DNA from: Ectocarpus siliculosus
Taxonomy: Eukaryota; Sar; Phaeophyceae; Ectocarpales; Ectocarpaceae
Reading direction: 5' to 3'
DNA length: 28,029 nucleotides
Assembly: GCA_000310025.1 (NCBI GenBank)
Contig: FN648382.1
Location: 238,981-267,009, forward strand
Below are positions 1,629-24,290 of this stretch, piece by piece. The position numbers and the translations under genes are program-made. How positions within the stretch are numbered: the stretch's first letter is position 1; each line of letters opens with the position of its first letter. The notes beneath the pieces are model-generated. The model did not search any database. It was not told the origin of the DNA and worked only from the letters and a program-made list of their open reading frames with translations.

Positions 1629-1663
1629 TAGAGAGAGAGAGAAAAGGTCCCCGCAGTTTTCTG

Positions 1664-1729
1664 ATTGGCCAATTTTTTTGAAAGGAAATTTCCTGTGGAC
1701 GAAAATTCCATGGTCGACCGATGACGTCA
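1664..1729. promoter_or_regulatory. Cluster of four perfect palindromes near the left terminus
   Basis: Four perfect inverted repeats lie within 66 bp: ATTGGCCAAT (1664-1673, also a CCAAT box on both strands), AGGAAATTTCCT (1683-1694), GGTCGACC (1712-1719) and TGACGTCA (1722-1729, the CRE/bZIP consensus). All four are preserved in the right TIR (13824-13889). They may bind a dimeric recombinase or replication initiator, or be transcription-factor sites for the TIR promoter. The sequence alone cannot decide. Confidence 0.55.
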
Positions 1730-2099
1730 GCCACGGTTGTTGGTTGTGAGGTCGCCTTTTCGGGAAAACTCGAAAAATTCAAATTCCCCGTGATTGACTG
1801 ATTGGTCTGATTGGTCTGATTGATGACGCCAGACTTTCACGGGAATCGCCGGCCACACTTTCTTGTGCCCTGGAGGAAGGCATTTCCTACCGGCTCCTCC
1901 GATCCACTCTAGGCTGGGTGGTATTGAACCCACCATCCTCGCCCCTTTTCTTGTGAATTTTTTGTCGCACCCACACGACGGACGGACGGTCTTTGAAAAA
2001 AAAGGAGAGCTGCGACAAATCTTGACGGGAAACAATCGTCGCCAGGAAACACCCACACGCTCACAACTGCATCCTGCCCTCACAGGAGAAGAGACATTT

Positions 2100-2216
2100 T
2101 CTACAAAACAATCGCGTCTTCACCACACGGAGTACTCGAGAGACAGATATATTATTGTCATCAGTCAACGGTGCCACCACCGTGGTTGACGCTTCGGGTA
2201 AAAAAAGAGAAAAATT
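2100..2216 (+). promoter_or_regulatory. TIR promoter and 5' leader, left copy
   Basis: A TATA-like ATATATTA lies at 2147-2154, about 63-70 bases before the ATG at 2217. An imperfect hairpin-forming segment (GGTGCCACCACCGTGG) and an A-rich stretch follow directly before the start codon. The same arrangement is found in the right TIR (TATA-like TAATATATAT near 13406-13414), so each end can drive transcription inward. The promoter role is inferred from position. Confidence 0.4.
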
Positions 2217-5200
2217 ATGTTGGCTCATTTCAAAGAGAGGATGGCACGGGCATCCACGGCAGCTGTATCATCACCACATGCCACCAGCTACCGGTGGTGC
2301 TACGTGGAGCAGGTAGACCAGGCCGCTCCCCTCGCAGGCAGGAGCAACGGATGGCGGTACTTGGGGCCTGGAGGGATCACCTATAGGCGCCAGGCCGTCT
2401 TCGGCACGGGGTTTAGGGTTCGTATCTCCTTCCCTTCCTCGCCGGGGCCGGGATACAGGTGGTTCAACTCGCACCCCCTCGGAGGAGATCCCAACCTGTA
2501 CAATTTTCAAACTTGGGCGAGGACGGTGCTGCAGGGAGGCATGGTCCACCCGCGTGACGCCGAGGCTTGGCGCACGGCGTTTGTAGAGGTAGAGGGTGGT
2601 GGCCTTGGACAGCTGGTTGTGTCAGCGGCCGACGAGAGCTGGCGAGTAATCTTCTGCTGGGCGTCAGCTGGCAGGGAGATCGAAGTCGACACCCAGGGCA
2701 TCCCGATCTCTCTTGTGAACCTCCAGGTCCGATCTGGTCTCGACTCACAGAGCCCTTTTTTCAGACAGCTTAACATAGCGACCTTCGGGCACAGAGTTGT
2801 GAGATATGCCCCCATCACCGCATTCGGCAAAAAATGGCAGAAACAGCTTCCCGGAGCCTGTCTCGCTGTCCTCGTCGCCGAAGTTTGGCGCGATAGTCAA
2901 GTCTACCTGCTAAAAAAACCAAAGGAGAGGAGAAGGTTTGGATTCCGCGATGTAGATCCCACGGGTGCGTTTATGATCTCATCTCGTGGTGGTCGACCAA
3001 AAAAGGGCGCGCCTGTACACAACAAGAACGCTCTTGACGGTGGGAACTACTTCCGCAACCTGTATTCGATTCTACTGGAGCGAGACATCGGGGAAGTAGA
3101 GTTCGACACATGGGTTTCGGGGGATGCAGAACCACCCGCCTTGACATTACTGCATCTCGAAAAGTGGCTCCATATGACCAACGCCAGCGTGGTGGTGTGG
3201 TCACATCGGGGCACTGGTGCCAACATTCTTGGACCATCCGACGGGAAAACGAACCTCCAACTGCCCACACTACACGTTGGGGTTCGTGAGGGACACGTGT
3301 ACCGGCTTGTGCTCGAAGGGCCTTGGGGAGACAGGTTTGGATCGTCTCTAGACGTGGCAATCGATCACAGCGTACGAACCTACCGTAAATTCCGTCGAAT
3401 TTCTGAGATGACCGTGGAAGAACAGGAACCAGATACGACTGGGTTTGTCACCAAGACCTTCTCGTGTGTCGCTGACATTGTGAGTGATATCATGGCCATC
3501 AACGAAACAGGGGGGGACCACAACCGACAGCCAGTAGAAAAGCGGAAGCATGGCAGGAAGGTATCAGAAAGCAAGACGTGGTACGCGCCTCCAGGAACGG
3601 CCCTCGACGAACTCATGCTCCACCTACACCTCGCTGGGGTCTCTTGCGAAGGTAAACTCACGAACTACAGTCGCTGGGATTCACTGTCCTTACCAGCGCA
3701 CGGCGTAATCATCCGAACCTGGTGCAGCGCGAGCATGGGTGGGCTCGATCCCGATGACTTCGAGCCCGACCAGGCAACACGATTGATCGAGCTGCATAAT
3801 GCCCTGGGTCTGAAGTTCCACCGCGGGGTATTGGATTTTCGAGTATCGAGGCAGTACAGCCAGTCTCTGCTCGCCCTCCTTGAGGTTTGCTGGCGGGGGC
3901 CGATCGTCGGGGCAGAGGACGCGTCCGGGAGTTCCTACGGGAGGGAAGACTGGCAATGTGACATCAATGGGGCCCACACGGCCGCCCTAATGAACATGGA
4001 GACGGTGCCCGTTTTCGGCCACATGGATGAGGTGGAGGAGTTCGATGGCCACAACATCGAGGATTGGACGCTTTACATCATCAAGCTGGACGCGCTCGGT
4101 GAGTCAGACGTATTCCTTAATGCGGATGTGACGCCGGTCTTCGGTCGAAACTACAAGCGCTACCTCGACCTCATCGACAACGCGCCTCGCCACAGAGTCA
4201 CCCACTTCGTGCGACCATCCAGAACGGTCAGCAGGTGCCACATACCCAAACTTGTAAGAGACCTGCTCGCGCATGAGCTGGGTGATCCCCTCCTCGAGGA
4301 TGCCGACTGTGCACGCCGATTTAAAAAAGGAATATTCGTGCGGGCCAGCGGTATGTTGCAGCAGAGATATGCGGACAGGATAGATGCCGTCATGGTTACG
4401 AGCAGTGACGAGGCTTCCGTTGTGGGTGGAAAAATTGTCCCTGTCCTGTGCGAAGTCGATCGCGTCAAGGCCGAGCTTCGTACGGGACAAGGGGACCTTG
4501 GCATCGACTCACTTCACACCGGTGATGCATACCTTTGTTTCGACGCAGAACGGACCTGGTACAGAGATGGCTTCTGGGCGTTAGGTGCGCTCATTCTCGA
4601 CGAAACTCGATTACGAGTGTTGGAGGCGAGGAACGCTCTCGAACTATGCGGCGCGTCCGACTTTAGCTTCCAGTGTGACGCGGTGTTCTTCAGGGGATGT
4701 TCTTCGGTGCAAGAAAAGATGAGACTCCGCTTCAACCAGTTGTTTAGCGGCAACGACAAAACCCCCGGCACTCTCAAGTTTGAACCGGCATTGAAGAACC
4801 CGCTGTGTGGAGAGAGGAGGGTGTTCGAAGGCATCGTGGTCAAGCTATCGCTGGATGCGTTACCTCCGGCAATGAGGAAAATTCCCTGCCCGTTAAAACC
4901 CCGGCTTTTAGTGATCCCTCTGTGGGATGGCGTCGGCACCGGCTTCAGTTCGATGGAAGAAGCTCACAGCGCCTGGCGTCGTCTCGGCAAGAACACCAAG
5001 CGCAATATGTGGCCGGAAATATGCGAGGCCGAGTCACCATCAAAACTAGAAAATTTACTCCGCGGCTCGTTGTCTCGACAAGGTTCAAGGATTGTTTGTG
5101 CGGTGACCGGAGAACATGGAGGGGCGGGGAAGAGTTATTGTGCCTTCAACGCTGCCAAGAATATCTTCAAAACGGGGTTGGTCGTTACCCCTACCAATAG

Positions 5201-6482
5201 TCTGAGAACGTCCTTCACAAACCTGCCAACCGGTTGGAATGTAAAGACCGCTGACCACCAGCTCGGATTCTACCTGGGCGATGATTCTCATGTGAAGAAG
5301 ACGGCGGGGTCGATACGTGCACTTAAGGTCGACGTGATCATCATAGAGGAAGCTGCTTATATGCCTCTCCGGACCCTAAGCATGGTCCTGGCTGCCGCCC
5401 ATAGCAGCGGTACCCACGTGATCGGGACGTACGACACGCACCAACTCCAGCCCGTTTGCGAGAGTAGCGGCATGTCGATTAGCAGGGACAACGTCAACAG
5501 AAAGTTCATCCTCGAAAAAGCCTTCCCCACATGCTTTCATGTCTTCGCACGCAAGCGGGATAAAACTGTCGACGAACAGGTGGAGATGGACGACGGCCTC
5601 TTGCACATTCTGGCCGCAGGAAACGACAGTCACGAGGCGCAGACTCGAGCCATCGAGAGATTTGGTGGTGGTTGTCTGGACGACCCAAGCCCTTCAGACT
5701 TTCATCTCGCTTACACTAGAGACTGTGCTCGTTTCTATGCGTTTCGAGGCTTGCTGGGGTGCAACGAGTCTGGAGGCTGGGACGTGCTGGGGCATAAAAC
5801 AGTTGTTGGTGCACAATATCGGGACCTTGGGAACCTGGGCAGGGTTCACAAGAATCACAACTACAACATCATCCGGTCCTCAGGAGATACCGTTGTTGTC
5901 GCGAGCGCATTCGACGGTGCTGCTAGCCTTCAGGAGACTTCACTCTGTCGAGCGGAGGCGGAAAACTTGTTTGACCCCTCGGGAGCGTGCACGGTACACG
6001 CCGTCCAGGGCCGTACGGTAGAAGGGAGACTGATCATACACCAGGCCCGACACCCTTACGCCGATGTGTACTGGATATACACGGCCATAAGTCGAGCGAC
6101 CGGACCGTCGAACGTCAGGGTCATCGACGATATTCACCGAAGCAAGAGCGACATGTCAGACCGAGAGAGGGCATCGTGGATTTCTGGGAAGGTTTCAAGT
6201 TATATCTACGCCGACGTTGCGGCCGAGCGTCTCGGATCTGATGAGGGGGGACAGTACAGAGAAGCTCTCGTCCAAGAACTCCAACGCTCCTACGGGGGGA
6301 GGTGCAACTTGTGCAACCATGACTTGGTCTGGGCCGTCTATAGTGAACGCCAACCGACTCTCGATCGTCTTGACTGCGCTTTGCCGCACACGATCGATAA
6401 TGTAGATGTGAAATGCTTAAAGTGCAACAGAGCCAGAGGAAGCCTAGGGAGAGGGAAGTCGAAAAAGAGGAAGACGAGTTGA
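2217..6482 (+). CDS. PolB-like / SF1 helicase / HNH nuclease fusion protein (1421 aa)
   Basis: A single uninterrupted frame. Residues 1-34 are encoded by the TIR. Residues ~35-560 are of unknown fold. Residues ~575-900 look like a divergent family-B polymerase palm: the motif DINGAHTAAL (Asp582) resembles motif A, and QCDAVFF (Asp821) sits where motif C would be, without the full DTDS. Residues ~950-1310 form an SF1 (RecD/Pif1-like) helicase. Visible motifs are Walker A GGAGKS (968-973), Walker B VDVIIIEEAAYMP (from 1038), motif III GTYDTHQLQPV (from 1070), CTVHAVQGRT (from 1258) and YTAISRA (1288-1294). Residues 1363-1404 are a zinc-finger HNH nuclease with CxxC at 1363/1366, LDRLD, His1391, Asn1395 and CxxCN at 1400-1404. 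The C-terminus GKSKKRKTS is a plausible nuclear-localisation signal. The start at 2217 follows the leader and recurs identically in the other TIR. The likely role is replication or transposition of the element. The helicase and HNH calls are firm; the polymerase call is tentative. I recall DIN-type proteins of this kind in other protist and fungal genomes but cannot name the family. Confidence 0.88.
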   Translation: MLAHFKERMARASTAAVSSPHATSYRWCYVEQVDQAAPLAGRSNGWRYLGPGGITYRRQAVFGTGFRVRISFPSSPGPGYRWFNSHPLGGDPNLYNFQTWARTVLQGGMVHPRDAEAWRTAFVEVEGGGLGQLVVSAADESWRVIFCWASAGREIEVDTQGIPISLVNLQVRSGLDSQSPFFRQLNIATFGHRVVRYAPITAFGKKWQKQLPGACLAVLVAEVWRDSQVYLLKKPKERRRFGFRDVDPTGAFMISSRGGRPKKGAPVHNKNALDGGNYFRNLYSILLERDIGEVEFDTWVSGDAEPPALTLLHLEKWLHMTNASVVVWSHRGTGANILGPSDGKTNLQLPTLHVGVREGHVYRLVLEGPWGDRFGSSLDVAIDHSVRTYRKFRRISEMTVEEQEPDTTGFVTKTFSCVADIVSDIMAINETGGDHNRQPVEKRKHGRKVSESKTWYAPPGTALDELMLHLHLAGVSCEGKLTNYSRWDSLSLPAHGVIIRTWCSASMGGLDPDDFEPDQATRLIELHNALGLKFHRGVLDFRVSRQYSQSLLALLEVCWRGPIVGAEDASGSSYGREDWQCDINGAHTAALMNMETVPVFGHMDEVEEFDGHNIEDWTLYIIKLDALGESDVFLNADVTPVFGRNYKRYLDLIDNAPRHRVTHFVRPSRTVSRCHIPKLVRDLLAHELGDPLLEDADCARRFKKGIFVRASGMLQQRYADRIDAVMVTSSDEASVVGGKIVPVLCEVDRVKAELRTGQGDLGIDSLHTGDAYLCFDAERTWYRDGFWALGALILDETRLRVLEARNALELCGASDFSFQCDAVFFRGCSSVQEKMRLRFNQLFSGNDKTPGTLKFEPALKNPLCGERRVFEGIVVKLSLDALPPAMRKIPCPLKPRLLVIPLWDGVGTGFSSMEEAHSAWRRLGKNTKRNMWPEICEAESPSKLENLLRGSLSRQGSRIVCAVTGEHGGAGKSYCAFNAAKNIFKTGLVVTPTNSLRTSFTNLPTGWNVKTADHQLGFYLGDDSHVKKTAGSIRALKVDVIIIEEAAYMPLRTLSMVLAAAHSSGTHVIGTYDTHQLQPVCESSGMSISRDNVNRKFILEKAFPTCFHVFARKRDKTVDEQVEMDDGLLHILAAGNDSHEAQTRAIERFGGGCLDDPSPSDFHLAYTRDCARFYAFRGLLGCNESGGWDVLGHKTVVGAQYRDLGNLGRVHKNHNYNIIRSSGDTVVVASAFDGAASLQETSLCRAEAENLFDPSGACTVHAVQGRTVEGRLIIHQARHPYADVYWIYTAISRATGPSNVRVIDDIHRSKSDMSDRERASWISGKVSSYIYADVAAERLGSDEGGQYREALVQELQRSYGGRCNLCNHDLVWAVYSERQPTLDRLDCALPHTIDNVDVKCLKCNRARGSLGRGKSKKRKTS

Positions 6483-6509
6483 TTGTACCGTGGTCGACCG
6501 CTAGCTTTT

Positions 6510-7400
6510 ATGCCAAGAAACTCAGGAAATAATATGTATTGTGTGTATACAGATAATTCAATCATGAACGATCTCATTCCCCAGTGTGCCCGTTGGTTGG
6601 AGGATAATAAAGACCCGGTCCATGTTCTTGAGGTCTTGAGGACTCTGCATCCAGGCTCTCTCAACAAAAATGTTCGGCGAGTCAGGCGAGAATGGATGCA
6701 AGTATACGGTCCCGGCCGAAACGATGGCACCATCAGGAAGGAGCTTAAGCGCATACTCAAAGTCCTACAGAGGAAGGCGTCGTCGCTGGCCAAGAAAACC
6801 TCAAGTGATTCAAGGAAGAAATACAGCTTGAAGCAGCTCAAAATAGCCGAGAGCCGTATCATTTCGTTTTTCAAGTTGGATTTATTCGGCAAATGGGCAG
6901 CGCGCAATACCATTCATTCCCACAAGGAGTCCTTCACTGGGCTTGTTGATATCGACGCTCTCGTACGGAAGGTAAATATACTTCCGCCGCACGTCTCTCA
7001 GCTGGAACTCACGCCGGAAGAAAAAAGTATTCCAAGGAAACGACGTCGAGAAGCCTTGGCAGCGAAGTGCGAAAAGAGCATCACAGTGAACGCAAGCGAC
7101 CTTGTCGATCTCATGGGAGCAATTATCACATACCCCCGAGCAAATTACTTTGAATTGGCGTGCGCGTTATCGTTTGTTTCTGGGAGGGCGCTACCTGAGC
7201 TTGTTCGTAGTGCTGTCCAATTTTCGCCCAGTAGTCACGGCAATCACGAGGTACATATCAAGGTTGGTGGAGGAACCTACCGGATACCACTAATATGCGA
7301 ATACGAACACTTTATAGGGGGTGTCAATCGGTTGCGCGGAATGAAAGATACATCCCGCCTAACGCCCGCCGAGGTAACCATCGATTTAGTAAATCAGTAA
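6510..7400 (+). CDS. Telomere-resolvase (protelomerase)-like protein, main part
   Basis: 296 residues from the first ATG. The frame is the same as that of the upstream protein and is separated from it by one TGA and 27 bases, so the frame is actually open from 6483. The N-terminal half is basic and helical (an arm or DNA-binding region, with a KRRRE cluster near residue 180). The C-terminal third resembles the catalytic domain of telomere resolvases of the TelK/TelN type: ELACALSFVSGRALPELV (the conserved Arg region), a strand-rich VHIKVGGGTYRIPLI, then a helix with NRLRGMKD. Such enzymes are tyrosine-recombinase relatives that make hairpin DNA ends. The frame stops at 7400 before the rest of the domain. 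That remainder continues in another frame (see 7367-7633). No catalytic Tyr is visible in this part. A different tyrosine-recombinase subfamily is the main alternative. Confidence 0.6.
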   Translation: MPRNSGNNMYCVYTDNSIMNDLIPQCARWLEDNKDPVHVLEVLRTLHPGSLNKNVRRVRREWMQVYGPGRNDGTIRKELKRILKVLQRKASSLAKKTSSDSRKKYSLKQLKIAESRIISFFKLDLFGKWAARNTIHSHKESFTGLVDIDALVRKVNILPPHVSQLELTPEEKSIPRKRRREALAAKCEKSITVNASDLVDLMGAIITYPRANYFELACALSFVSGRALPELVRSAVQFSPSSHGNHEVHIKVGGGTYRIPLICEYEHFIGGVNRLRGMKDTSRLTPAEVTIDLVNQ

Positions 7401-7633
7401 ATTTGTACGCCAGAAAACTGCTTCCTTGCGAAGTCGGATTGCGTGTATTCAGCGATTTGAAGACGCTCCACGTCGTGATTAGTCACAGAAAGTTCACAGG
7501 GCACGAGTTTGATTTGGGTGAATGGTTAAAAATTGCACGCGGTGGTCCGAGTTCACCGGCTTTAAACCGTAAGTGTTCGGTTGTCAAAGTAGAAGGGATC
7601 AAGGAAGAGGATCACAGGCAGTGGACGGTGTGA
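7367..7633 (+). pseudogene. Frame-shifted C-terminal part of the resolvase-like gene
   Basis: After the upstream frame ends at 7400, the frame two bases over is open to 7633. It reads SVNLYARKLLP, then VFSDLKTLHVVISH and a terminal GGPSSPALNRKCSVVKVEG. In position and pattern these match what follows in telomere resolvases (helix, the 'F-K-D-x-R' helix, then the 'LGH...hYk' segment). The shift lies somewhere around 7367-7400, where no slippery heptamer in the upstream frame and no room for a normal intron can be seen. The residues aligning with the catalytic Lys/Arg pair, His and Tyr appear replaced (SDLK, ARGG, NRKC), so this copy looks inactive, unless the alignment by eye is wrong. Confidence 0.5.
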
Positions 7634-7719
7634 CTTCAATCCGCTAGCATCTTCGTCGTCGATGTCCTTCCTTTCTCAGTGACCGTGCAAAGACTGTGAC
7701 TCGTTGGATTTGTGTTGTG

Positions 7720-8240
7720 CGCGCAAACACACACGCACATACTAAATTTTCACGCAATGTTCACCGATATCTTGTGTATGAAACAAAACGTTCAAACACG
7801 TCCTATTGACCGAGACTACCACCCCGGGAGAAACATCTTTCTCTTCTCTACTTTGATCGGGGCTTTGTGTTGCACAAACACACAGTTTTCACACGCACAC
7901 ACACACACACACCAACACGAAAATTTTACACCACCAACACCAACACCGATATCTTGTGTATGAAACAAAATGCACGTCCTATTGACTGAGACTACCACCC
8001 CGGGAGAAACATCTTCTGTTCTCTACTTTGATCGGGGCTTTGTGTTGCACAAACACACAGTTTTCACACGCACACACACACACACACACACCAACACGAA
8101 AATTTTACACCACCACCACCACCACCGATATCTTGTGTATGAAACAAAATGCTCAAACACGTCCTATTGACTGAGACTACCACCCCAGGAGAAACATCTT
8201 CTGTTCTCTATTTTGATCGGGGCTTTGTGTTGCACAAACA
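7720..8240 (+). repeat. Central ~180-bp tandem repeat, nearly three copies
   Basis: The phrase GATATCTTGTGTATGAAAC recurs at 7766, 7948 and 8127 (periods about 182 and 179). Each is followed by the same segment through CGGGGCTTTGTGTTGCACAAACAC and a (CA)n tract, then AAAATTTTACACC(ACC)n. A partial unit precedes the first copy. It sits between the convergent arms of the element. It may serve as a shared 3' end or terminator region, or as an origin-like iteron block; no coding potential is apparent. Confidence 0.85.
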
Positions 8241-8429
8241 CTACGCACATGTCAACGCAAGGATATATGCACATAATAAAAGGATGATTCTCACAACCAT
8301 AACAACAGCATTTTGAGGCTTCTATCCCTGAAGACCCCGTGCATGTGGCCTCCGGCACTAGCAGCCGACAGGCATGGATCTCATATTTATTTGGTAAGAC
8401 GCCCGTTCGCCCTTGTTTCGAGTTCCCGC
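8241..8429. other. Spacer after the tandem repeats
   Basis: No feature is seen beyond the likely 3' untranslated region of the leftward gene that ends at 8430. Confidence 0.3.
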
Positions 8430-9458
8430 CTACCCCTGCGCATTTTGGTGCCACTCCCTGGCCTTCTGCATCAGGTAAGCGTTGCCTCTCTCCAACTTGG
8501 GCGCCTTCTTGATCCTGGCACCGTCCTTCGTGCATGGGTAGGATGCTCTCTTGTTGTCGCCGTTGCTGTCGAAGGGCTGGGTGCCCAACGTCCTCTCCCC
8601 GTTGTTCACGCTGGGGACGCTCCACTCGAAGAACTCCGACGGGTTTTCCGAGATGATAATGTCGCCCGTCTTCTTGTTCTTCTGAGCACGGAGGTGCTTG
8701 CCGAGGGAGGTAGCGTACGGGCCGTAGTCAAACTCGATACGACCGGCGGCGCCGGGGCCTCCCCGGTGGCTGTTGGGTTTCTGTTGTTTTCCCGATTGTA
8801 CCGCCCCTGAAAATTCGTTTCATTGGAACATTCATTCGGAGGCGGCAAGTGGCCGAGTTTGAGCGTCTTTTTCGCAAGACGAAACACGGGAAGCCCCAGG
8901 CTACACCAACGCCGGATGGAGCGGTACATTGTGGATGTAACCAGGGCTGTAGTAGCGAACATCAAGAGTGAAGGACATTTCATTCGTGTCACACGCACGC
9001 AGCCGTATCACCACATTCTACTGAGCAGGGAGCGGTCATGAGTTGGTGGCATCGGGTGAACTATCATATCATGAAAGGCGGGGAAAGGTCGGAATGGAAC
9101 TGTAGGAAAGGACGTGACAACAAAACAACACAATACAGAAACGCCTGCAAAGGAAACGACGGGCGGGGGGGATACGCTTAATCCCAACCATGCACCAGTT
9201 GCTCCCTCTTAAGGCATCGCGTTCTGTTCGATCGACTACTGTCACATAATAAGCAAGAAAAACGTTAAATAGCACGCTTCAACAACAACAACAATAACAA
9301 CAACAACAGACTCTGGGGATAGAGTGAAATACAAGAACAAGCTCACCTCCGACACTCGCGTTCTTGACGTGCACGTGTCCGTCACAGCTGCATGCCTCAC
9401 CCGACTCGGTGCAGGAACACCCGGCCACATTGCAGGAGTTGGCTGAAAATATGAACAT
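8430..9458 (-). CDS. Spliced gene of unknown function with Cys-rich N-terminus
   Basis: Two coding exons on the minus strand: 9458-9347 and 8806-8430. The donor is GGAG|GTGAGC at 9346, the acceptor ATTTTCAG|GG before 8806. Exon 1 ends in phase 1 and exon 2 begins with the two completing bases, so the frame is continuous for about 162 residues. The N-terminus contains SCNVAGCSCTESGEACSC, five cysteines in CxC/Cx3C spacing, reminiscent of a metallothionein or a small zinc knuckle. It is followed by a Gly/Ser/Gln-rich linker and a charged domain (RIEFDYGPYATSLGKHL... to EWHQNAQG) that I do not recognise. The start could instead be upstream of an acceptor TTTTCAG at 9443, which would make 9442 the first base of an internal exon. 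The 540-bp intron holds one copy of a direct repeat whose other copy lies upstream of exon 1. Confidence 0.6.
9123..9308 (+). repeat. Direct repeat copy 1 (in the intron)
   Basis: About 115 bp from AAACAACACAATACAG to GATCGACT are almost identical to 9515-9631. Weaker similarity then extends through a TYAAATANCACGC motif and a trinucleotide (CAA)n tract. Confidence 0.85.
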
Positions 9459-9514
9459 CGAATACACGCGACACAGGAAGAGTAGGTCGTTAGGGTTTCA
9501 ATAGAAAGTAAGGG

Positions 9515-9679
9515 AAAACAACACAATACAGAAACGCCTGCAAAGGAAACGACGGGCGGGGGGGATAGGCTTAATCCCAACCATGCACCAGTTGCTCCCT
9601 CTTAAGGCATCGCGTTCTGTTCGATCGACTGTCAAATTTTCATTCCAAAAGTCAAATATCACGCTTTGGCGGCAACACC

Positions 9680-9711
<32 letters not shown>

Positions 9712-9722
9712 CAGCAACAACG
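9515..9722 (+). repeat. Direct repeat copy 2 (upstream of the Cys-rich exon)
   Basis: It matches 9123-9308 and ends in (CCA)n(CAA)n. The two copies bracket the Cys-rich exon. The short motif TCATTCAANNNGTCAAATNGCACGCC, degenerate, recurs again near 9735 and 10170, so this part of the element has been built by repeated local duplication. Confidence 0.8.
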
Positions 9723-10262
9723 ACACCGGCCTTTCATTCAACGAACCAGTTGCACGCCTTGGTAACATCAGAAAGAGAGAGCGGTGATTAGATGGTTTGT
9801 GTCCGGTGAATGGCACACCGGCAAAGTGGGAGTGGAAATTACTCGTCGACCGCCAGGCAACAAAACACATAGACGTCTTCGATGATTGGGCATCGACCTT
9901 AAACGAACCAAATCCAACAACAGTTCGACCAAAGGGGGCGGTTTTAGCAGGGATTACACTCACTGAGGGGCACACCGGGAAGGTCGATGCACATGGGACG
10001 AATGGGAAACAAGACATGCCAACGCACAAGCACAAAATTCATTCATTCATTCATTCATTCATCGTTCAATTCATTCAAACAACACACAACCCCAACAACA
10101 ACAGCCCGTTCGCTTAATACAACGATATCACCGCCCATGCTCCTGATCTTTGACCCCGAGGCCACAACGTTTCATTCAAAGGGTCAAATCGCACGCCTTC
10201 CTTTAAGGACAGCATTGTGTCTTCGTAATTGGCCGTCGCTTCGTCACTCTACTCTAGTAAAA
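9723..10262. other. Intergenic region with (CATT)n tract
   Basis: This lies between the two leftward genes. It contains the degenerate repeat motif copies near 9735 and 10170 and a (CATT)n microsatellite at 10038-10063. A plus-strand open frame (about 9792-10117) reads plausibly but has no ATG and no clear splice partner, so I leave it uncalled. Confidence 0.35.
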
Positions 10263-11507
10263 TCAAAGAACAACCATAGTTCCGTTCGGGCTGCCTTTCT
10301 TGCCCTTGTTCCTCTTGCCGAGTCGGTGGTAGGCGGACGCCTGCTCCTCGGGGGGTGCTCGGAACAGCGAAACGCCGTCGGTGAAGTCCCCCGACTGCCG
10401 GATCCGTGACTTGATCGTCTTCGGCGGTACACGGTCCGTAGTCGTCACCTTGAACGCTTCCTCGCCGTCGACGGCCTTCACTCCACAGAGCGAGGGGAAG
10501 CTCTCGGCCAGCGGGTGGGACTGACTCCGCCAGGGATTGAAGGCGCCACGTCCCGGAGACCAAGTGCAGACTACCGAAAGGCTTGCTTGGTCCGGGGGGC
10601 TGATTCCGTGGAAGAGGGGGGCGTAAAGGACCTCCGAGGTGGCGATGTACGCGTCTCCGCTCCGCATCGGCATGATAAGGGGCTGCGGCAGGTCGCCGCC
10701 GCTGAGGATGAAGTCCCCGGTGGACCTCGCGGGGTCTACTTGCCCGTGGAGGAGGACGTCCGCGCCAAGGTGAACCGTGCCGCGCACATCGAACTTCATC
10801 CTGTCTGAATGAGACGTGTGAAGTTGCTCTTTCTCCCGTGTAGTCAGGTGCGCGCAGTCCGATCGCACGCCAACCAGGTCGGTCATCGTGGCGATCGCGC
10901 CAGCGACGACAGGCGCCAGGGCAAGGTCTACCCCACCGTCGACGGGCTTGCCTCTGGACAGGATGTCCACGCTGTCGTACGCTCGCTGGAACGACAGGTG
11001 GGACTCGATGTGCTGACGCTCCCCCTCGGTGAACGTCGGCACGCTCACCGCCCCACGGTAGAAAGCCAGGCCGTTCTTGACCCTGGTCGGCACTCCTGTT
11101 GGTGCCCGCGCCTGTAGGAAACGTGTGGTAGGTACGTAGACGCGGCCATGGGTGAATAACACAAAACTGCCAGAGTTCAACCAGATAAGACAGGCAGATA
11201 ACCTTGTGTATCGTGGAGAATACACGCAACACACGCACACTCTACAGGTGGGCCGACTGTCCCCCTTACCTTCGGGTCGCCTACTCCTTCGCTGCTGCTG
11301 TTGCCGCCGAAGCTGGGCTCTCTCCTCCTCTTTCCAGACGATGTCGGGGGTGTACTTTCGACAGCGTTCTCCTAATCATGGATGGAAGAGCGGGATAGAT
11401 CAGACGACAAATAGGTGGATGACAAGCGTGCACTGAGATACACGCTTTAGTCTATAGCAACATGTACTGACCTCCAATGCAGATTTGAAGCTGTAAGCGA
11501 TGTTCAT
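10263..11507 (-). CDS. Three-exon gene of unknown function (328 aa)
   Basis: Exon 1 is 11507-11472 (MNIAYSFKSALE), exon 2 is 11371-11270, and exon 3 is 11111-10263 including TGA. Donors GGAG|GTCAGT and GAAG|GTAAGG and acceptors GATTAG| and CCTACAG| are good consensus sites. All introns are phase 0 (100 and 158 bp), and the frame is open throughout, which strongly supports the model. Exon 2 encodes a Ser/Pro-rich linker with a nuclear-signal-like GKRRRE. Exon 3 encodes a hydrophobic stretch (LALAPVVAGAIATMTDLVGV) followed by a largely strand-like region (residues ~140-270), and the protein ends in a very basic tail (RLGKRNKGKKG). I do not recognise a family. A structural, DNA-packaging or accessory replication protein would fit the basic tail, but that is only inference. 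Confidence 0.65.
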
Positions 11508-12755
11508 GGTAGGATCGTGTCAGACGGGAGGGCCTTTGTGTGTGAGTGAAACAGGGGGGCGGGGGGGACTTGCGTGCCCGCGTTCACCGGGTAAAAATCG
11601 AGAACATTGGAGGCGTTACTGCTCGTAGCAGCGAATTCGTTCATCGATGCTTGGTACTACTGCTGTATTCTCTGGAACAACTTCCTCGGGAACAGGGTCT
11701 CTGTCAAGAGCCTAAAACTGTCTGCGTGGAAATCAGTACCAGTATGGTTGCGGAAAGCGGTGGTGGATTCACACGTGTTACCTCTCGAGGTGAACGGGGG
11801 GGTGCCGGGCTGTTGAGCGGTTGCGGGGTAAGAACCCGCTGGCCTGACGCCGATGTGCCACGTGCCCGAGGAGGTGTGACCGGGCAGCTCTGGAAAATAT
11901 ACAGAAAATACACAATGACACAGTGGAGAGGGAACAGAATCAGCGGATGTACCGCTTGTCACGTCCGGTTAGATCTGTTGAGCTACAAACGAGAGGTGGC
12001 AAGTGGCCTGTGCTTGGTGCTAAAAGCGAGCCGTTGAGCCTCTCGGGCATATTCTGCTGGCGGTGTCTCTTACCATCTGCGAGAGTCAAAGGAAGCAGCA
12101 GTAAGTAAGTGTGAAAACATTCGGAGTGAAATGCGGCATACATAGCGGAAAGCTTACCTCCATCGCTCTCGTAGAAGCTTGTGGGCCGGAATAGGGTAGA
12201 AGTAGTGACAACCTGCTGACGAATGAATAGATAGGTAGCACCCGATGAGGGTGGAATGGATCTCAGTTCACCGATTTCGGTCGTACATGGATGCGGTGTT
12301 CACTTTGTTTGACCGGAGTGCTTTGACAGTAGTAGGCGCACCGACGAGAATAAGGCATCTCCTGGCGATTCCGTGAATAGTATCGTTGCGCGTTCTGCCG
12401 CAGCAGAGAGAGCAACAAGTCAGCTAGTAGAGAGATAATCACATGTCAGGTAATAGGATACGTGACAAGGTTTGGGGTTACAGCACATCCAGGATGGGTA
12501 TATGTGTGGACGTACTGAACCCCCGTGGTGTATTGTGGGAAGGATGACACGGATAATTCAAGCAATTGAAACGACTCCGCCTCAGACACTGGCCCGCCGT
12601 AACGAACACAACGCACCGCAGTACTGCTGCCTGAGGCTAAGTACAGCGACGAAGTGAGAGCTCGTGGTGTTGTTTTTGTATCGCCTATCGGCAGGGACAT
12701 CGAGAGACGCAAATCAGGGAACCTGGCAGAGAGCTACGTGGACAGCTGGACAAAC
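11508..12755 (-). other. Possible further leftward exons, unresolved
   Basis: Several minus-strand open stretches are flanked by splice-like sites: an acceptor TATTTTCCAG| near 11890 followed by a frame ELPGHTSSGTWHIGV... to about 11655; an acceptor CTCTCGCAG| near 12090 followed by a frame reaching 11940; and an open frame from about 12712 to 12446. Two of these frames are continuous apart from an in-frame TAG (near 11654 and 12730). They may be exons of the TIR-initiated gene, decayed coding sequence, or chance. I could not find one phase-consistent chain. Confidence 0.3.
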
Positions 12756-13342
12756 CTTAGTGATCTGCTGCTGGTGATGACTATAGGCAGTATCCTGGTT
12801 CTTGGATGCTCGTCGACTCTGCCACAGCGGGACGTCTGGGGTGTGTGGGCCGAGCACTGCAAGGGGGTTCCATGTAGTCTGTCTGCTGGATGGGTGTCTC
12901 TGATTTTGAACCGGGGCCCCCGATCGCCACGAAAAATGGGAGGAGGCGTTTGCCCCAGAAAAAGTGTACTGAAATTAGACAGAAAGCTCCCTGCTTGGCT
13001 GTCTACCAGCCTTCCTACCACGAAACTCGAGATAAGACGCTAGGAAGAGATCATTTTGCGATTTTCAACCCACCCCAAGTGGTATGTAGCTGGACGCTTT
13101 GAAACTATTTGTTCGGGTCACCTCCCGTCTAGCACACAGCTGTAGAGCAATTGCTGCTAGAGTCAAGAAGAGAGGATCCCAGTATAATGTTTGCAGCAGA
13201 CTGGTTATTATGCTACCCTCGGTGACATACCTTCTTGAGGGTCTACCTGCTCCACGTAGCACCACCGGTAGCTGGTGGCATGTGGTGATGATACAGCTGC
13301 CGTGGATGCCCGTGCCATTCTCTCTTTGAAATGAGCCAACAT
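12756..13342 (-). CDS. TIR-initiated leftward gene, first exons (tentative)
   Basis: The right TIR contains the same ATG and 34 codons as the large replication protein. Here the frame continues three more residues beyond the TIR (PQE) to a good donor, GAAG|GTATGT at 13231/13230. A phase-consistent continuation exists: a 32-bp exon 13153-13122 (acceptor TCTAGCAG|, donor GGGAG|GTGACC), then 13039-12756 (acceptor TTCCTAG|, donor CTAAG|GTTTGT). Exon 1 is well supported by conservation of the TIR. Exons 2 and 3 are guesses, and the opposite strand is also open over exon 3. The product would share its N-terminus with the replication protein and then diverge. Confidence 0.4.
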
Positions 13343-13924
13343 AATGTTTCTCTTTTTTTACCCGAAGCGTCAACCACGGTGGTGGCACCGTTGACTGATG
13401 ACAATAATATATATCTGTCTCTCGATTACTCCGTGTGGTGAAGACGCGGTTGTATTGTAGAAAATGTCTCTTCTCCTGTGAGGGCAGGATGCAGTTGTGA
13501 GCGTGTGGGTGTTTCCTGGCGACGATTGTTTCCCGTCAAGATTTGTACATAGCAGCTCTCCTTTTTGTTTTCAAAGACCGTCCGTCCGTCGTGTGGGTGC
13601 GACAAAAAAAATCACAAGAAAAGGGGCGGGGATGATGGGTTCAACACCATCCAGCCTAGAGTGGATCGGAGCAGCCGGTAGGAAATGCGTTCCTCCAGGA
13701 CAGAAGAAAGTGTGGTCGGCGATTTCCCGTGGAAGTCTGGCGTCATCAATCAGACCAATCAGTCAATCACGGGGAATTTGAATTTTTCGAGTTTTCCCGA
13801 GAAGGCGACCTCACAACCGTGGCTGACGTCATCGGTCGACCATGGAATTTTCGTCCACAGGAAATTTCCTTTCAAAAAAATTGGCCAATCAGAAAACTGC
13901 GGGGACCTTTTCTCTCTCTCTCTA
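13240..13924 (-). repeat. Right terminal inverted repeat (685 bp)
   Basis: This is the reverse-complement partner of 1629-2319. It keeps the same outer TA(GA)6AAAGG end, the same four palindromes (13824-13889), the same leader and the same ATG (13342-13340) with 34 codons identical at protein level and one synonymous difference. High similarity between the two ends implies recent homogenisation or recent insertion. Confidence 0.95.
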
Positions 13925-15114
13925 TTTTGATTTGAATTACGAGTAACATCAATCCCAAAAAGAAACTACAACAAACAACGGGACAATCTGTTGTGGGGTG
14001 GGTTTTTGATTTCCAGGGTGGTAATGGAACACTGCAATGCATGGAAATTTCCACGCGTACAGCAGCATTAAAAAAAACGAAAAATCAGATGGATGGCCAT
14101 CAAGCGTCCACCCGCGTAAACGGCAGAAAACTAGACGCTGCTGAGCAAGCGGAGAGATAAAAATGAATTGAAAAAACAAAGGCAATGCACGAAGCAGGTG
14201 CCGGTTTTCTCATCTCTCATGCATTCATCGTCAATTCATCTCAATCTCTCGAACACCCGTACCACCAACCACAAGCTAGCCCCCTAAACCTCAAGTTGCC
14301 GCCGACTGCATCCATGCAACTGTTGCAAACTCGCGGTAATATGATGGTGGCGCAGAGTGTGAGTCCCTTACAGACAGGGCCTTATGGAACGGGGGGACAT
14401 GTAAAACTCGAAGATAAATGGTACACCCCCCCAGAAACGTTACGCGCAGATTTCATTTCTCGACCCCAACGATCACAAACAAGCCAGGATCCTTGACCTA
14501 ACACGCACAAAGCCTGGAACACATCCATACCACGAACCTCTCCGCAAGTCTGAGATACATCCACCCGCTTCGCACGCCAGTACACGCTAAACCAGAAAAC
14601 CTGGTAGGTAAATATCATCTCATATCTTTTTCCGATTGTGATTCCGACTCCGGACGAGCAATCGGAAAAATCGGTTCCCACTCACAACCCTCCAGTTGTT
14701 CCCGCCAACCGTCCAACACCGTTCCACTTCCTGACGGTGGGAGAACGACTCAGTTCATTCAACGATAAACCACAAATTGCCGCGCACTTGCAAGATGCAA
14801 CGCACCATCCAAGAAACTATCTCCATGCACCTGTGGTTAAGATTTCACTGTCGAAGCTATCACGTGCCAGGTTAAATACCCCTGTTACGCCCAGATTGGC
14901 GGGGGTGGTCAGGCAACATGGACGCCCCTGACACGCTACTGCAGGTCAACGGCTACCTAAGGAGATTTAGACAAGAACCTACACAGCCGGAGGGCTCGAC
15001 ACCATCATCAGGCCAAGGCATTCTTCAGGGGCAAACAAGCTCTGAATAGCCTGAAAGGACTAAAGGCAGCAGACAACATCCAACTTGGGAGGAACACACG
15101 AGAAATGCCAGTTG
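13925..15114. other. Unit A sequence without a supported gene
   Basis: It is homologous to about 20600-21720. Open frames in one copy are broken in the other, so I find no conserved coding sequence here. Confidence 0.4.
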
Positions 15115-16183: not shown

Positions 16184-17653
16184 CTACACGAATCCCACGA
16201 TCTTGCGGAGCACTCCCTCGTCCGTGACCGCCATTAGCCAGGCTGCTGTGATATCGAACCCAACAACTAGGCGTCGATGTCCAGCCCTACCTCCGGCGCG
16301 CGCGTCGCGGCTCCCCGCCCCCGCCTCCGCCCCCGCCCCCTGGCCGTGTCGGCCACCCAACTCTACCTCGACCTTCACCTGCCCCGTCCTGGCACGTTGG
16401 CTCCGGCGCTCGGTCGGTTGCCCCGTGGACTCGGCTGCCATGTCGGGGATCTCCTCTGCGAACCGTAGCCTTTCAGGATGGGCGCGGCACAAGACCAGGA
16501 AGCCCCGGCGACGCCAGGCCCTATCCTGCGGAGCCTTCTCCAGTAGCGCGGCCAGACGTTCGAGTCTCGGGCGGTCTCTTTCGTCAGCTTGAGCAATTGC
16601 TGGCATGAGCGCGCTGGGAGTGGTGACTCCCTCGTTGTCCACTGCCATCTCATCTGCACCCCATCTCAGAAGCAGATCCGCGGCGTCGGCATGGCCCTTT
16701 TGGGACGCGGCGTGCAAGCAAGTCCATCCAATTTCGTCGTGGCTGTTCGCGTCGGCACCCAGTTGTAGGAGAACGAGCATGGCAGCGCAAGAGCCCTTCC
16801 AGGCCGCGTACCAAAGTGGTGACCGTCCAAGCGACATTCGAGCTTCAATGTCGGCCCCGGCTTCGATGAGCGCTGGGATGGCGCCTGATTTGTTGCACTT
16901 GACGGCAACATGCAAAGCGGTCTTCGAAAGGTCCGTCTGACGCTTCGCATCGGCACCGGCAGCCAGCAGAACCTTCACTGTCGAAACATGATCTCCTTCC
17001 ACCGCAAGACTGATAGGGGTCATGCCTTCATCATCCAGAGCGTCCAGATCCGCCCCCTTGTGGGCCAAGGCATGCACGACGTCATGCCGACCTACGCGGG
17101 CGGCGACATGGATAGGGCAGTCACGTGCGAAACCTCGGGCTTTGGGATTGGCTCCACCGAGCAAAAGGTCCTTCGCGAGCCGTGCATGATCTTTACCGAT
17201 GGCAAGATGAAGGGGAGTGTCGCCGTTGCGGTCCGCCGCATTCACATCGGCCCCAGCAAGCATCAGCACCCGTGCCGCAGCGTCCTTCCCGGTTGCAACT
17301 GCAACATGGAGTGGAGTCCCCCCCACAATGCCCAGGACTTTGGCCTCCATGTCTTCTCCAGCGCCAGCCCTGACGAGAGCCGTCACCACCTCCTCGTTGC
17401 CGCCCTCGGCAGCCGCATGCAGCAGAGTTTTGTCATCACAACCCCGCCAGCCCGCACTCCCGTCTGCTCCAGCTTTCAACAACTTCTCCACTAAGTCTTG
17501 GTTGGCCGTGCCTGCTGCATGCTCCAGAGGGGCCCTCAGCCACTCCGCCCACTGTTCCGATGTCGCTCTATCGCACATGAGTTTGAAGATTATGCCTGCT
17601 GCATCCCCCAGGGTTTTGGCACGGTCTTCTGCGTCTTCTCTTGGCGCTGGCAT
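16184..17653 (-). CDS. Ankyrin-repeat protein, copy A (489 aa)
   Basis: The start is ATG at 17653 in context GTGTCACCATGCC; the frame is open further upstream, but this start is shared with copy B. After an N-terminal helix (residues 1-38) come about nine ankyrin repeats (residues ~40-350), recognisable as TPLHxAxxxGHxxxxxxLLxxGADxx units, e.g. GGTPLHVAVATGKDAAARVL and DTPLHLAIGKDHARLAKDLL. A helical, Arg-rich region follows (~355-410), then a low-complexity Gly/Ala/Arg stretch and a conserved tail ending KIVGFV. No signal peptide or membrane segment is seen. Ankyrin repeats mediate protein-protein binding; the partner is unknown. The gene appears to be a single coding exon with a splice donor just after the stop. 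Such ankyrin proteins form large families in brown algae. It is the tandem paralogue of 22818-24290. Confidence 0.88.
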   Translation of the reverse strand: MPAPREDAEDRAKTLGDAAGIIFKLMCDRATSEQWAEWLRAPLEHAAGTANQDLVEKLLKAGADGSAGWRGCDDKTLLHAAAEGGNEEVVTALVRAGAGEDMEAKVLGIVGGTPLHVAVATGKDAAARVLMLAGADVNAADRNGDTPLHLAIGKDHARLAKDLLLGGANPKARGFARDCPIHVAARVGRHDVVHALAHKGADLDALDDEGMTPISLAVEGDHVSTVKVLLAAGADAKRQTDLSKTALHVAVKCNKSGAIPALIEAGADIEARMSLGRSPLWYAAWKGSCAAMLVLLQLGADANSHDEIGWTCLHAASQKGHADAADLLLRWGADEMAVDNEGVTTPSALMPAIAQADERDRPRLERLAALLEKAPQDRAWRRRGFLVLCRAHPERLRFAEEIPDMAAESTGQPTERRSQRARTGQVKVEVELGGRHGQGAGAEAGAGSRDARAGGRAGHRRLVVGFDITAAWLMAVTDEGVLRKIVGFV

Positions 17654-19301
17654 GGTGACACTGATCAACGGGTGCGAACAGCGAAGGCAACACAACCACC
17701 AACACACGACTGGCCCCCGAGCACGATAGCCGAGAAGGTTCAAATCAGCGAGTTGACAACAGCAAGATGTCTGGGATGTGGCATGCCAGATGCACAGCCT
17801 GCAGTAATCTACAGCAATCAGGGGCCCCGCAAAGGTGTACGCAGGGATGCATACTGTTCTGTATCTGTGCCGGCCCCAATAACCCTCCGCATTGCCCCGC
17901 AGTGCTGCACACAGCCAGTAGCCAGCTCAGGGAGCTGCAGCTGCGCCGTGATCGGGAGAGGAAAGAGAGCACATCACACCGCTGGGTGCTTGGCAAAAGG
18001 TGGGTGTGGATAGGTGGTCATAACAGTCGCGTTAGTTCCGAGATAGGATGGTGGTGTTTTAGTGTTTGATGTTTGATGTTATATAATAACCGCAGCAGCA
18101 GTGGTCTCCAGCACGTCATTCCCCCGCAAGAGAGCAGCGTCGGGCGATATGTAGCATGGTTTGCGCATCCTGTGTGTGTGGGCAGAGCCATTGAACGATG
18201 ATTGTCGACGGGCTGAAGAGAGGGCGATCGCAAAGCTGGTGACTGTGCTTCTTGGTGTGCCCTGGCCTATCCTAGGAAACATAAGTAGTACAAACATAGA
18301 AAGACCCATTCGAGATATAATCCTCTTGAACCCCAAAAGTGTCAGATGACCGTTATATTATACTGCTGTACCCCCCATTCGCAGTCCGTAGTTCAAGCTA
18401 TGCTGCCAACAACAGATTACCCTCATGTAGTGGGGACCGTCCGCGCTTGATCTCTGTACCACGATGGACACCCTTGATTTTGCTGCGGTACCCTTGACGT
18501 GCTACTGCTATACAGAGAGGCAAACAACGTGCTACTGCTGTATCATCTTGAGCCCTCTCTTCGACGTGCGACACAGCGAATGTTGAGGGTGTACGCAAAG
18601 ACGCAAGGTATGATACACGTATTACATGTGTAACAGGCAAAGTCTTCCTGCTCCGGTGTTACATAAAGTAAGCAGCGAGGAATATCATCTAGGCCAACAC
18701 GCGGATTAAGCGAGAAGAAACGGCCACCAAGACAGACGAAGCTGCTGGAAACGATGGGAGATGACGCAGTTGCTGGAAAGCTTGGAAAACTGCTGTATGT
18801 AGCCTATAGTCTACTCTACAGTTAGCTGACGCGGGCTTATTGATAATTTTAACGGCGCTTATTGGCGTCAAGTCCTGCTCTTGATCACCGTTCGTAGTCG
18901 CCGAGAGCGCTCAAATCGAAGATGGGACGGAGGCAGGGCATGATCCCATAGCTCGGTCCTTTGCGTCGCGTTTCGCATGGCTTTGGTGCCGGCACCGACA
19001 CTATAGTATCTGTTGACGTCCGTCCAATCCCCCCCCACCCCCGCTCTGTGTGCGGCGCCCCGCGTGTTCAAAAGTGGCTTGCGGCTAGAGGAGGAGGAGA
19101 TCAGTCAAGTGCAAACCAACAGAGGAAAGGAGGGGGGCAGGAGAGGGATGGTCAGACTTCACCATTCACAAGAAAAGCCAACCACGACGTTATCGTACCG
19201 TCAACGCGGCCGGCGCGATGTGTCGAAAAAGGCGCACGCGGAGGGAAGTTAGTGGAGTAGTCTAGAGGTGCGGTTCGTCGAGGGAATCAAATCTGGCCGC
19301 G
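17654..19301. other. Upstream region of ankyrin A and of the TRAPPC8 exon copy
   Basis: The ~100 bp upstream of the ankyrin start (to about 17760) are nearly identical to 24291-24397 and probably hold promoter and leader. Beyond that the copies diverge. 18360-18600 and 18880-18960 align with 24970-25140 and 25600-25650. No conserved open frame is seen. Confidence 0.4.
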
Positions 19302-22817: not shown

Positions 22818-24290
22818 CTACAGGAATCCCACGATCTTGCAGAACACTCCCTCGTCCTTCACCGCCATTAGCCAGGCTGCTGTGACATCGAACCCAACAA
22901 CTGGGCGGCGATGTCCAGCCCTACCTCCGGCGCGCGCGTCGCGGCTACCCGCACCCGCCTCCGCCCCCGCCCCCTGGCCGTGTCGGCCACCCAACTCTAT
23001 CTCGACCTTCACCTGCCCCCTCCTGGCACGTTGGCTCCGGCGCTCGCGCGGTTGCCCCGTGGACTCGGCCTCCATGTCGGGGATCTCCTCTACGAGCCGT
23101 AGCCTTTCAGGATGGGCGCGGCACAAGACCAGGAAGCCCCGGCGACGCCAGGCCCTATCCTGCGGAGCCTTCTCCAGTAGCGCGGCCAGACGTTCGAGTC
23201 TCGGGCGGTCTCTTTCGTCAGCTTGAGCAATTGCTGGCATGAGCGCGCTGGGAGTGGTGACTCCCTCGTTGTCCACTGCCATCTCATCTGCACCCCATCT
23301 CAGAAGCAGATCCGCGGCGTCGGCATGGCCCTTTTGGGACGCGGCATGCAAGCAAGTCCATCCAATTTCGTCGTGGCTCTCCGTGTCGGCACCCAGTTGT
23401 AGGAGAACGAGCATGGCAGCGCAAGAGCCCTTCCAGGCCGCGTACCAAAGTGGTGACCGTCCAAGCGACATTCGAGCTTCAATGTCGGCCCCGGCTTCGA
23501 TGAGCGCTGGGATGGCGCCTGATTTGTTGCACTCGGCGGCAACATGCAAGGCGGTCTTTAAACGGTTCATCCCACACTTCGCATCGGCACCGGCAGCCAG
23601 CAGAACCTTCACTGTCGAAACATGATCTCCTTCCACCGCAAGACTGATAGGGGTCATGCCTTTACCATCCAGAGCGTCCAGATCCGCCCTCGTGTGGGCC
23701 AAGGCATGCACAACATCATGTCGACCATGGCTAGCTGCGACATGGATAGGGCAGTCATGTGCGAAACCTCGGGCTTTGGGATTGGCTCCACTGAGCAAAA
23801 GGTCTTGCGCGATGCGGGCATCAACTCCTAATACTCCGATGGCAAGATGAAGGGGAGTGTCGGTATTGTGGTCCACCGCATTCACATCGGCCCCAGCAAG
23901 CACCAGCACCCGTGCCGCAGCCTCCTGTCCCCTCATAACGGCAACATGGAGTGGAGTCCCTCCGGTGCCCGGGGTTTTGGCCTCCATGTCTTCTCCAGCG
24001 CCAGCCCTGATGAGAGCCGTCACCACCTCCTCGTTGCCGCCCCCGGCAGCCGCATGCAGCAAAGTATTGTCATCACAACCCCGCCAGCCCGCACTCCCGT
24101 CTGCTCCAGCTTTCAACAACTTCTCCACCAAGTCTCGGTTGGCCGTGCCTGCTGCATGCTCCAGAGGGGCCCTCAGCCACTCCGTCCACTGTTCCGATGT
24201 CGCTCTATCGCACATGAGTTTGAAGATCATGTCTGCTGCATCCCCCAGGATTTTGACACGGTCTTCTGCGTCTTCTCTTGGCGCTGGCAT
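22818..24290 (-). CDS. Ankyrin-repeat protein, copy B (490 aa)
   Basis: Paralogue of 16184-17653 with the same start (MPAPREDAED), the same nine-repeat plan and the same tail (KIVGFL). Differences cluster in repeats 2-6 (for example TGGTPLHVAVMRGQEAAARVL against the copy A sequence). Repeats 7-9 and the following helical region are virtually identical at nucleotide level. No stops or frameshifts are present, so both copies are probably expressed. The segment just upstream is also nearly identical, so both likely share regulation. Confidence 0.88.
   Translation of the reverse strand: MPAPREDAEDRVKILGDAADMIFKLMCDRATSEQWTEWLRAPLEHAAGTANRDLVEKLLKAGADGSAGWRGCDDNTLLHAAAGGGNEEVVTALIRAGAGEDMEAKTPGTGGTPLHVAVMRGQEAAARVLVLAGADVNAVDHNTDTPLHLAIGVLGVDARIAQDLLLSGANPKARGFAHDCPIHVAASHGRHDVVHALAHTRADLDALDGKGMTPISLAVEGDHVSTVKVLLAAGADAKCGMNRLKTALHVAAECNKSGAIPALIEAGADIEARMSLGRSPLWYAAWKGSCAAMLVLLQLGADTESHDEIGWTCLHAASQKGHADAADLLLRWGADEMAVDNEGVTTPSALMPAIAQADERDRPRLERLAALLEKAPQDRAWRRRGFLVLCRAHPERLRLVEEIPDMEAESTGQPRERRSQRARRGQVKVEIELGGRHGQGAGAEAGAGSRDARAGGRAGHRRPVVGFDVTAAWLMAVKDEGVFCKIVGFL

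Follow-up and report, generated by a model that had tools for sequence, protein, structure and literature searches.

We have analysed a stretch of 28,029 nucleotides of the genome of the brown alga Ectocarpus siliculosus (189.5 Mb in 492 contigs), taken from contig FN648382.1, positions 238,981 to 267,009 (C54:238981-267009 in our numbering of the contigs) and referred to below as the window. Positions 1629-13924 of the window are one copy of a multicopy element bounded by terminal inverted repeats (TIRs). The left arm (1629..2319, plus strand) and the right arm (13240..13924, minus strand) are about 690 bp long, as had been noticed in an earlier reading of the sequence alone (the sequence-only reading), and are 93.9% identical over 701 aligned bases; the outer ends of the element are (T)AGAGAGAGAGAGAAAAGGTCCCCGCAG. 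The two convergent gene blocks described in that reading were also recovered, with two open reading frames (ORFs) on the plus strand (2217-6482, whose start lies inside the left TIR, and 6510-7400) and open frames on the minus strand between 8433 and 13342. The first plus-strand ORF codes for a helicase/HNH-like protein and the second for a homologue of the protelomerases, also called telomere resolvases, enzymes known from phages, Borrelia, Agrobacterium and some algal giant viruses. A central tandem repeat (7762..8241, plus strand, with a unit of about 180 bp in 2.7 copies) is located 3' of this helicase/protelomerase block.

Profile comparison identifies the second element protein as a true homologue of the telomere resolvases. 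The resemblance to TelK and TelN on which the sequence-only reading had commented is therefore real: all five element proteins tested matched phrog_5272 (E 3.9e-12 to 2.3e-7), the family to which the TelN of phage N15 belongs (E 3e-293), and Pfam PF16684 (ResT/TelK) was matched at E <=0.1 by 11 of 15 members, the best at 1.9e-5, below the curated cut-off. Profile against profile, the family reached probabilities of 98-99% with protelomerases, the hhalign comparison with eight prokaryotic members giving 98.0% (E 1.9e-13, 193 columns). A PDB search with the family profile returned ResT as the best match (E 0.007), and the same search with a single element protein sequence returned no telomere resolvase. 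Since the element protein gave no match at E 10 in a tblastn search of phage genomes, the homology is visible only by profile. When a 15-row alignment was used to search proteins more widely, 14 close relatives and nothing else were found among the best 8000 candidates scored; two of the 14 were new, and only two came with a species name, Laminaria digitata and Ectocarpus.

The homologue was found at 18 loci of the genome. In the window its gene is broken near 7.4 kb: the frame at 6510..7400 (plus strand) runs for 296 codons to an interrupting stop, and the C-terminal part lies in another frame (7346..7633, plus strand), its counterpart in intact copies aligning with R383, H416 and Y425 of TelN. 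The product of 6510-7633 proposed in the sequence-only reading thus kept its homology but not its single reading frame. The gene is uninterrupted in the sister copy on C18 (374 codons; L002:1501-2625) as well as on C455 (367), C9 (373), C6 (365), C17 (365), C3 (361), C271 (363) and C457 (352), so that intact element proteins have 352-374 amino acids (aa), compared to 631 in TelN.

The catalytic set of the protelomerases, in TelN numbering, is R275, K300, R383, H416 and the nucleophile Y425, and the active-site list reported for TelA is of the same kind (PMC3558466). All five residues were invariant in the eight prokaryotic protelomerases. When 17 distinct element-type proteins (alignments A1 and A3) were scored for R275, R383 and Y425, the R275 column contained Gly in 14 and Ala in 3, and the Y425 column Cys in 9 and Ser in 8. 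Beyond the R383 column ten of the 17 lacked tyrosine altogether, and the remaining seven had tyrosines away from the nucleophile position. In a separate hhalign comparison R275, R383 and Y425 were paired with Ala, Lys and Cys of the C18 protein. On the other hand, G273 and E278 are kept in the element proteins and R274 in 14 of 17; in L005, L006 and P0037 this neighbouring R274 is Leu too, a further decay of the active site. Therefore, while the catalytic domain is homologous by profile to that of TelN, TelK, TelA and ResT (PF16684, phrog_5272), the element proteins differ from these enzymes in having lost R275 and Y425 throughout, in having mostly Lys for R383, in having mostly lost H416 and in leaving K300 unmatched. 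As judged from the alignments, the element protein keeps the protelomerase sequence signature without the residues for the chemistry. Judging by these columns, we reject the reading of an active hairpin-making enzyme, the second alignment method being in agreement.

The closest relative found is viral. PF16684 also matched, this time above the cut-off (60 bits), a 342-codon gene at C16:4529765 (L051), in which the five catalytic residues are all present in a joint alignment of ten element proteins, L051 and six of the eight prokaryotic protelomerases. L051 aligns with the element proteins over most of the length (BLASTP E 2e-14; hhalign 99%, E 6e-18, 287 columns), is similar to them in length, shares their N-terminal region and groups with them in a single clade (support 98/95; the branches are long and were flagged as such). 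The only match of the genome to a nucleocytoplasmic large DNA virus (NCLDV) capsid lies 91 kb from L051, and for this reason the C16 locus is probably an endogenous phaeovirus. The region C16:4438430-4530238 (L051, L062) comprises the NCLDV capsid gene, a gene with a vWA domain and the telomere resolvase with its complete active site. Telomere resolvases have been published for the phaeoviruses EsV-1 and FsV-158 and for endogenous viral elements of Ectocarpus (PMC13236599), and one has been predicted in coccolithoviruses (ehv387; PMC10222054). The element departs from this viral gene in its active site, kept in L051, and from its setting in being 12-16 kb long and having no detected capsid gene. 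No viral relative of the element was confirmed in IMG/VR with the helicase, the element protelomerase or the phaeoviral homologue as queries.

The first plus-strand gene (2217..6482) codes for a protein of 1421 aa. Its recognizable parts are a superfamily 1 (SF1) helicase ATPase core (5094..5468, plus strand), matching AAA_30 and containing the Walker A motif GEHGGAGKS and IIEEAAY; UvrD_C_2-like helicase C-terminal motifs (5985..6101, plus strand; VHAVQGRT, YTAISRA); and an HNH-like C-terminal motif (6292..6447, plus strand), read by eye as CNLC, PTLDRLD, PH, N and CLKCNRARG. In the window protein the Pfam matches to AAA_30 (E 3e-4) and UvrD_C_2 (E 0.024) are both below the curated cut-offs; across the family, UvrD_C_2 was matched at E <=0.1 by 10 of 13 members and AAA_30 by 9 of 13. 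The SF1 helicase named in the sequence-only reading can thus be retained on sub-threshold matches, and its HNH on a Pfam match in one of 13 members (E 0.044) plus the pattern C..C / DRLD / H / N / C..CN seen by eye. A stretch of the middle part (3855..4097, plus strand) was aligned by hhalign to motif A of phi29-type DNA polymerases (DINGAHTAALM against DVNSLYPAQM), not significantly (probability 0.8%, P 0.066), the other three segments giving P values of 0.37-0.75, and Pfam had no polymerase match at E 10 in this region. Nothing meaningful was returned by a PDB search with the helicase alignment. Homologues of the protein occur in Ectocarpus and Pylaiella (77-95% identity, in several cases across part of the query), in Hapterophycus, and in the xanthophytes Tribonema and Heterococcus (40-42% identity). 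In its own genome there were at least 52 matches (33 of 62 candidates scored), those on C54, C18, C17, C455, C12 and C457 being uninterrupted over nearly the whole query. The sequence-only reading had proposed to look for both proteins together in algal genomes; helicase relatives were found in the five genera just named, and the two proteins adjoin at 13 of the 18 protelomerase-homologue loci of E. siliculosus (counted by eye).

Both of these genes are under purifying selection. Of 28 pairs of the protelomerase homologue, 17 were saturated; the 11 with measurable dS gave a ratio of nonsynonymous to synonymous substitution rates (dN/dS) of 0.17-0.36. For the helicase gene the ratio was 0.07-0.36 (15 pairs among the six of 11 sequences that had frames of more than 1300 codons), nine of these pairs having dS >1 and being thus unreliable. 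The C455 copy has a split affinity, its helicase gene being near that of C12 (dS 0.07) and its protelomerase gene near that of C18 (dS 0.15), from which it follows that copies have recombined near the junction of the two genes.

The window element is most likely a member of an unclassified family of mobile DNA of brown algae, roughly 12-16 kb in size. The second copy, on C18, agrees with the window copy in its TIRs and its interior over most of the element length, the matching blocks having 86-99% identity (mostly 94-99%). Its flanks are unrelated to those of the window copy, so that the TIRs and the DNA between them travel as one unit. A query derived from the TIR found at least 66 matches in the genome; among those listed, end pairs were recognized on C54, C18, C9, C6 and C3, and a right end of the C17 copy was seen among the element ends inspected. 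There are also smaller TIR-bearing derivatives, with short TIR pairs on C15 (4.4 and 5.2 kb) and C23 (0.24 kb). Three TIR pairs (L030, L031 and L032) have no listed match to the helicase or protelomerase proteins and hence fit trans-mobilisation.

We compared 32 distinct element ends, from copies that are related and with some ends nested. The AG tract differs in length among them. The dinucleotide TA precedes the first G of this tract in 14 of the 32 (background 3.6%), an enrichment with a nominal P of 1.4e-12 that has to be read with the relatedness of the copies and the nesting of the ends in mind, and a T lies directly outside the tract in 21 of 32 (counted by eye). No target duplication longer than 2-3 bp was common to the TIR pairs, inspected by eye, and searching with the joined flanks of two copies gave no empty site spanning the joint. 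Two peculiar arrangements of ends were seen. At C9:174884-177625 (L034) the terminal unit of the element forms a tandem array with all listed copies in one orientation, as if by end-to-end addition, and at C26:2582160-2582250 (L029) two element ends stand head to head with a short spacer between them.

The right-hand block is variable. The right TIR repeats the first 34 codons of the helicase gene, followed 10 bases further by a GTATGT donor, which suggests that the right-hand gene probably begins with the same exon as the helicase gene; this predicted first exon (13231..13342, minus strand) has the same ATG and 34 residues as the helicase protein start, inside the TIR. The open frame at 10266..11375 (minus strand) had no Pfam, PHROG or NCBIfam match, and 104 residues of that at 8433..8819 (minus strand) are matched on C18 (92%) and C9 (40%). 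The C18 copy retains 9543-13928 at 97%, and other copies have different frames in this block. When right-block frames from six copies (window, C455, C9, C6, C17 and C457) were compared to Pfam, five were without a match at E 5 and one had a chance-level match (0.074). To the eye, the C455 and C9 proteins have an HxD...HG...R / SLTLVADY look reminiscent of 2OG-Fe dioxygenases, where Pfam finds nothing. In the ORFs of the window and these six frames, spliced genes not having been reconstructed, there was no Pfam match to any transposase family, DDE included, nor to a capsid, packaging ATPase, integrase or active polymerase.

Outside the element, the window carries tRNA-Met(cat) at 397-471 and tRNA-Ser(gct) at 907-988, just beyond the left end, and positions 1-290 are rich in homopolymers and possibly poorly assembled. 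On the other side there are two genes for ankyrin-repeat proteins on the minus strand (16187-17743 and 22821-24332; Pfam Ank_2, E about 1e-66), contained in a direct duplication with a spacing of about 6.6 kb.

The explanation that we favor, at about even confidence, is that of a family of mobile elements with a disarmed protelomerase serving as end-binding protein and with copying driven by the helicase. The mutant TelN(Y425F) is devoid of resolution activity but still binds hairpin telomeres, shielding them from Mre11-Rad50 (PMC12624138). By analogy, a protelomerase homologue that is under selection and has no active site is most likely an end-binding protein. The disarmed protein would bind the conserved terminal repeat (GAGAAAAGGTSCCCGCAG and neighboring sequence), recognising or protecting the ends, the SF1 helicase/HNH-like protein would open or nick them and drive the copying of the element, possibly via a linear intermediate, and the copies would integrate at sites flanked by T/A without a clear fixed-length target duplication. 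Several points weigh against this scheme. The gene of the protelomerase homologue is broken in the window copy, and the helicase and HNH assignments consist of sub-threshold matches and motifs. Three active-site columns are softer than R275 and Y425: the R383 column has Lys in 13 and Arg in 4 of the 17 proteins, and in 8 and 2 of the ten in the joint alignment, a less clear-cut change given that Lys is similar to Arg; H416 is replaced in eight of ten element proteins but kept in two; and K300, where none of the ten has a Lys, falls in a gap-rich region with a Lys two columns off in some members, and was given the least weight. Furthermore, no enzyme was identified that explains strand joining at integration, and terminus binding, a free linear form and transposition are inferred from sequence.

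Among the alternatives, an ordinary TIR transposon, in which a DNA-cutting protein (from the right block or the HNH tail) would do cut-and-paste with the helicase and the protelomerase homologue as accessories, seems to us unlikely, although it survives best. In its favor are the TIRs, the small TIR-bearing derivatives and the 14 of 32 ends that have TA ahead of the first G in the AG tract, but the scanned ORFs, spliced genes apart, contain no transposase family and the inspected TIR pairs no consistent target duplication. We regard as somewhat less likely still that the element is a satellite of a phaeovirus, comparable to a transpoviron, the viral resolvase making hairpin ends in trans during infection and the disarmed homologue capping or marking them. 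The probable endogenous phaeovirus on C16, where L051 with its five catalytic residues lies 91 kb from an NCLDV capsid gene, would provide the enzyme, and the layout of the element (TIRs, helicase, and a central tandem repeat 3' of the helicase) matches that published for transpovirons (PMC7031253). However, none of the listed TIR matches, at least 66 in the genome, lies near the C16 viral locus, and the right-block frames look spliced, pointing to nuclear expression, though introns are described in some phaeoviral genes (PMC13236599). The full version of this idea, a linear phaeovirus satellite in a multicellular eukaryote with virus-made hairpin ends that a disarmed resolvase of its own would cap, is a shade more doubtful again; if it were true, a eukaryotic hairpin-telomere-binding protein would have evolved from a protelomerase.

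The proposal of the sequence-only reading, that the element is a linear replicon in its integrated state, with hairpin ends made by a telomere resolvase of its own, is very improbable. The homology to protelomerases is true, the clade includes the phaeoviral enzyme, and two joined element ends would form a near-palindrome, but with other residues in place of R275 and Y425 in all 17 proteins and no tyrosine at the nucleophile position, hairpin-making by the element's own protein is not supported. Finally, the idea that the TIRs are host DNA duplicated locally in inverted orientation, and the genes host genes, can be dismissed, the same TIRs and interior being found elsewhere with different flanks, as in the C18 copy.

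We have compared the element with the known systems that it recalls. Transpovirons are described as having TIRs of 380-520 bp, a helicase gene and a central tandem repeat of 180-600 nt 3' of the helicase (PMC7031253, PMC11788076). By description the element resembles them in its TIRs of about 690 bp, its helicase and its central tandem repeat (7762-8241) after the helicase and protelomerase-like genes. In contrast, transpovirons are shorter, about 7 kb, and occur with giant viruses of amoebae, and the descriptions consulted mention no protelomerase homologue (PMC7031253, PMC11788076). In having what may be a polymerase motif A (statistically weak) ahead of its SF1 helicase, the 1421-aa protein brings to mind polintons, polinton-like viruses and Tlr1; in contrast to polintons and polinton-like viruses, the scanned element ORFs gave no match to a capsid, an ATPase, an integrase or an active polymerase. 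Krupovic is said to have described in 2016 an inactivated polymerase fused to an SF1 helicase in polintons, polinton-like viruses and Tlr1. Cryptons and Starships are tyrosine-recombinase elements, and the element protein belongs to the tyrosine-recombinase/protelomerase superfamily; it differs from theirs in having no nucleophilic tyrosine, and the element differs in its long TIRs. The protelomerase homologue is thus not an active tyrosine recombinase of the Crypton type, and the scanned ORFs yielded no further recombinase.

The phaeoviral telomere resolvase is already known. Among the titles and abstract beginnings listed from the open-access literature on telomere resolvases, Ectocarpus transposable elements and transpovirons, none describes the present element, the scope of the search leaving aside subscription papers and preprints. 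The view of the sequence-only reading that this is an unclassified element with helicase/HNH-like and protelomerase-like genes has held, with the addition that it is multicopy. A survey of the transposable elements of Ectocarpus tabulates 94 'Unknown' families, and the word 'resolvase' was not found in its main text (PMC12477816).

A catalytically dead protelomerase kept under selection in a eukaryotic mobile element would show that end binding can be separated from cutting in evolution, in parallel to TelN(Y425F), in which the two were separated in vitro and in E. coli cells. In addition, some of the repeats of brown algae that are listed as unclassified now have a described structure, and their connection with endogenous phaeoviruses can be put to the test.

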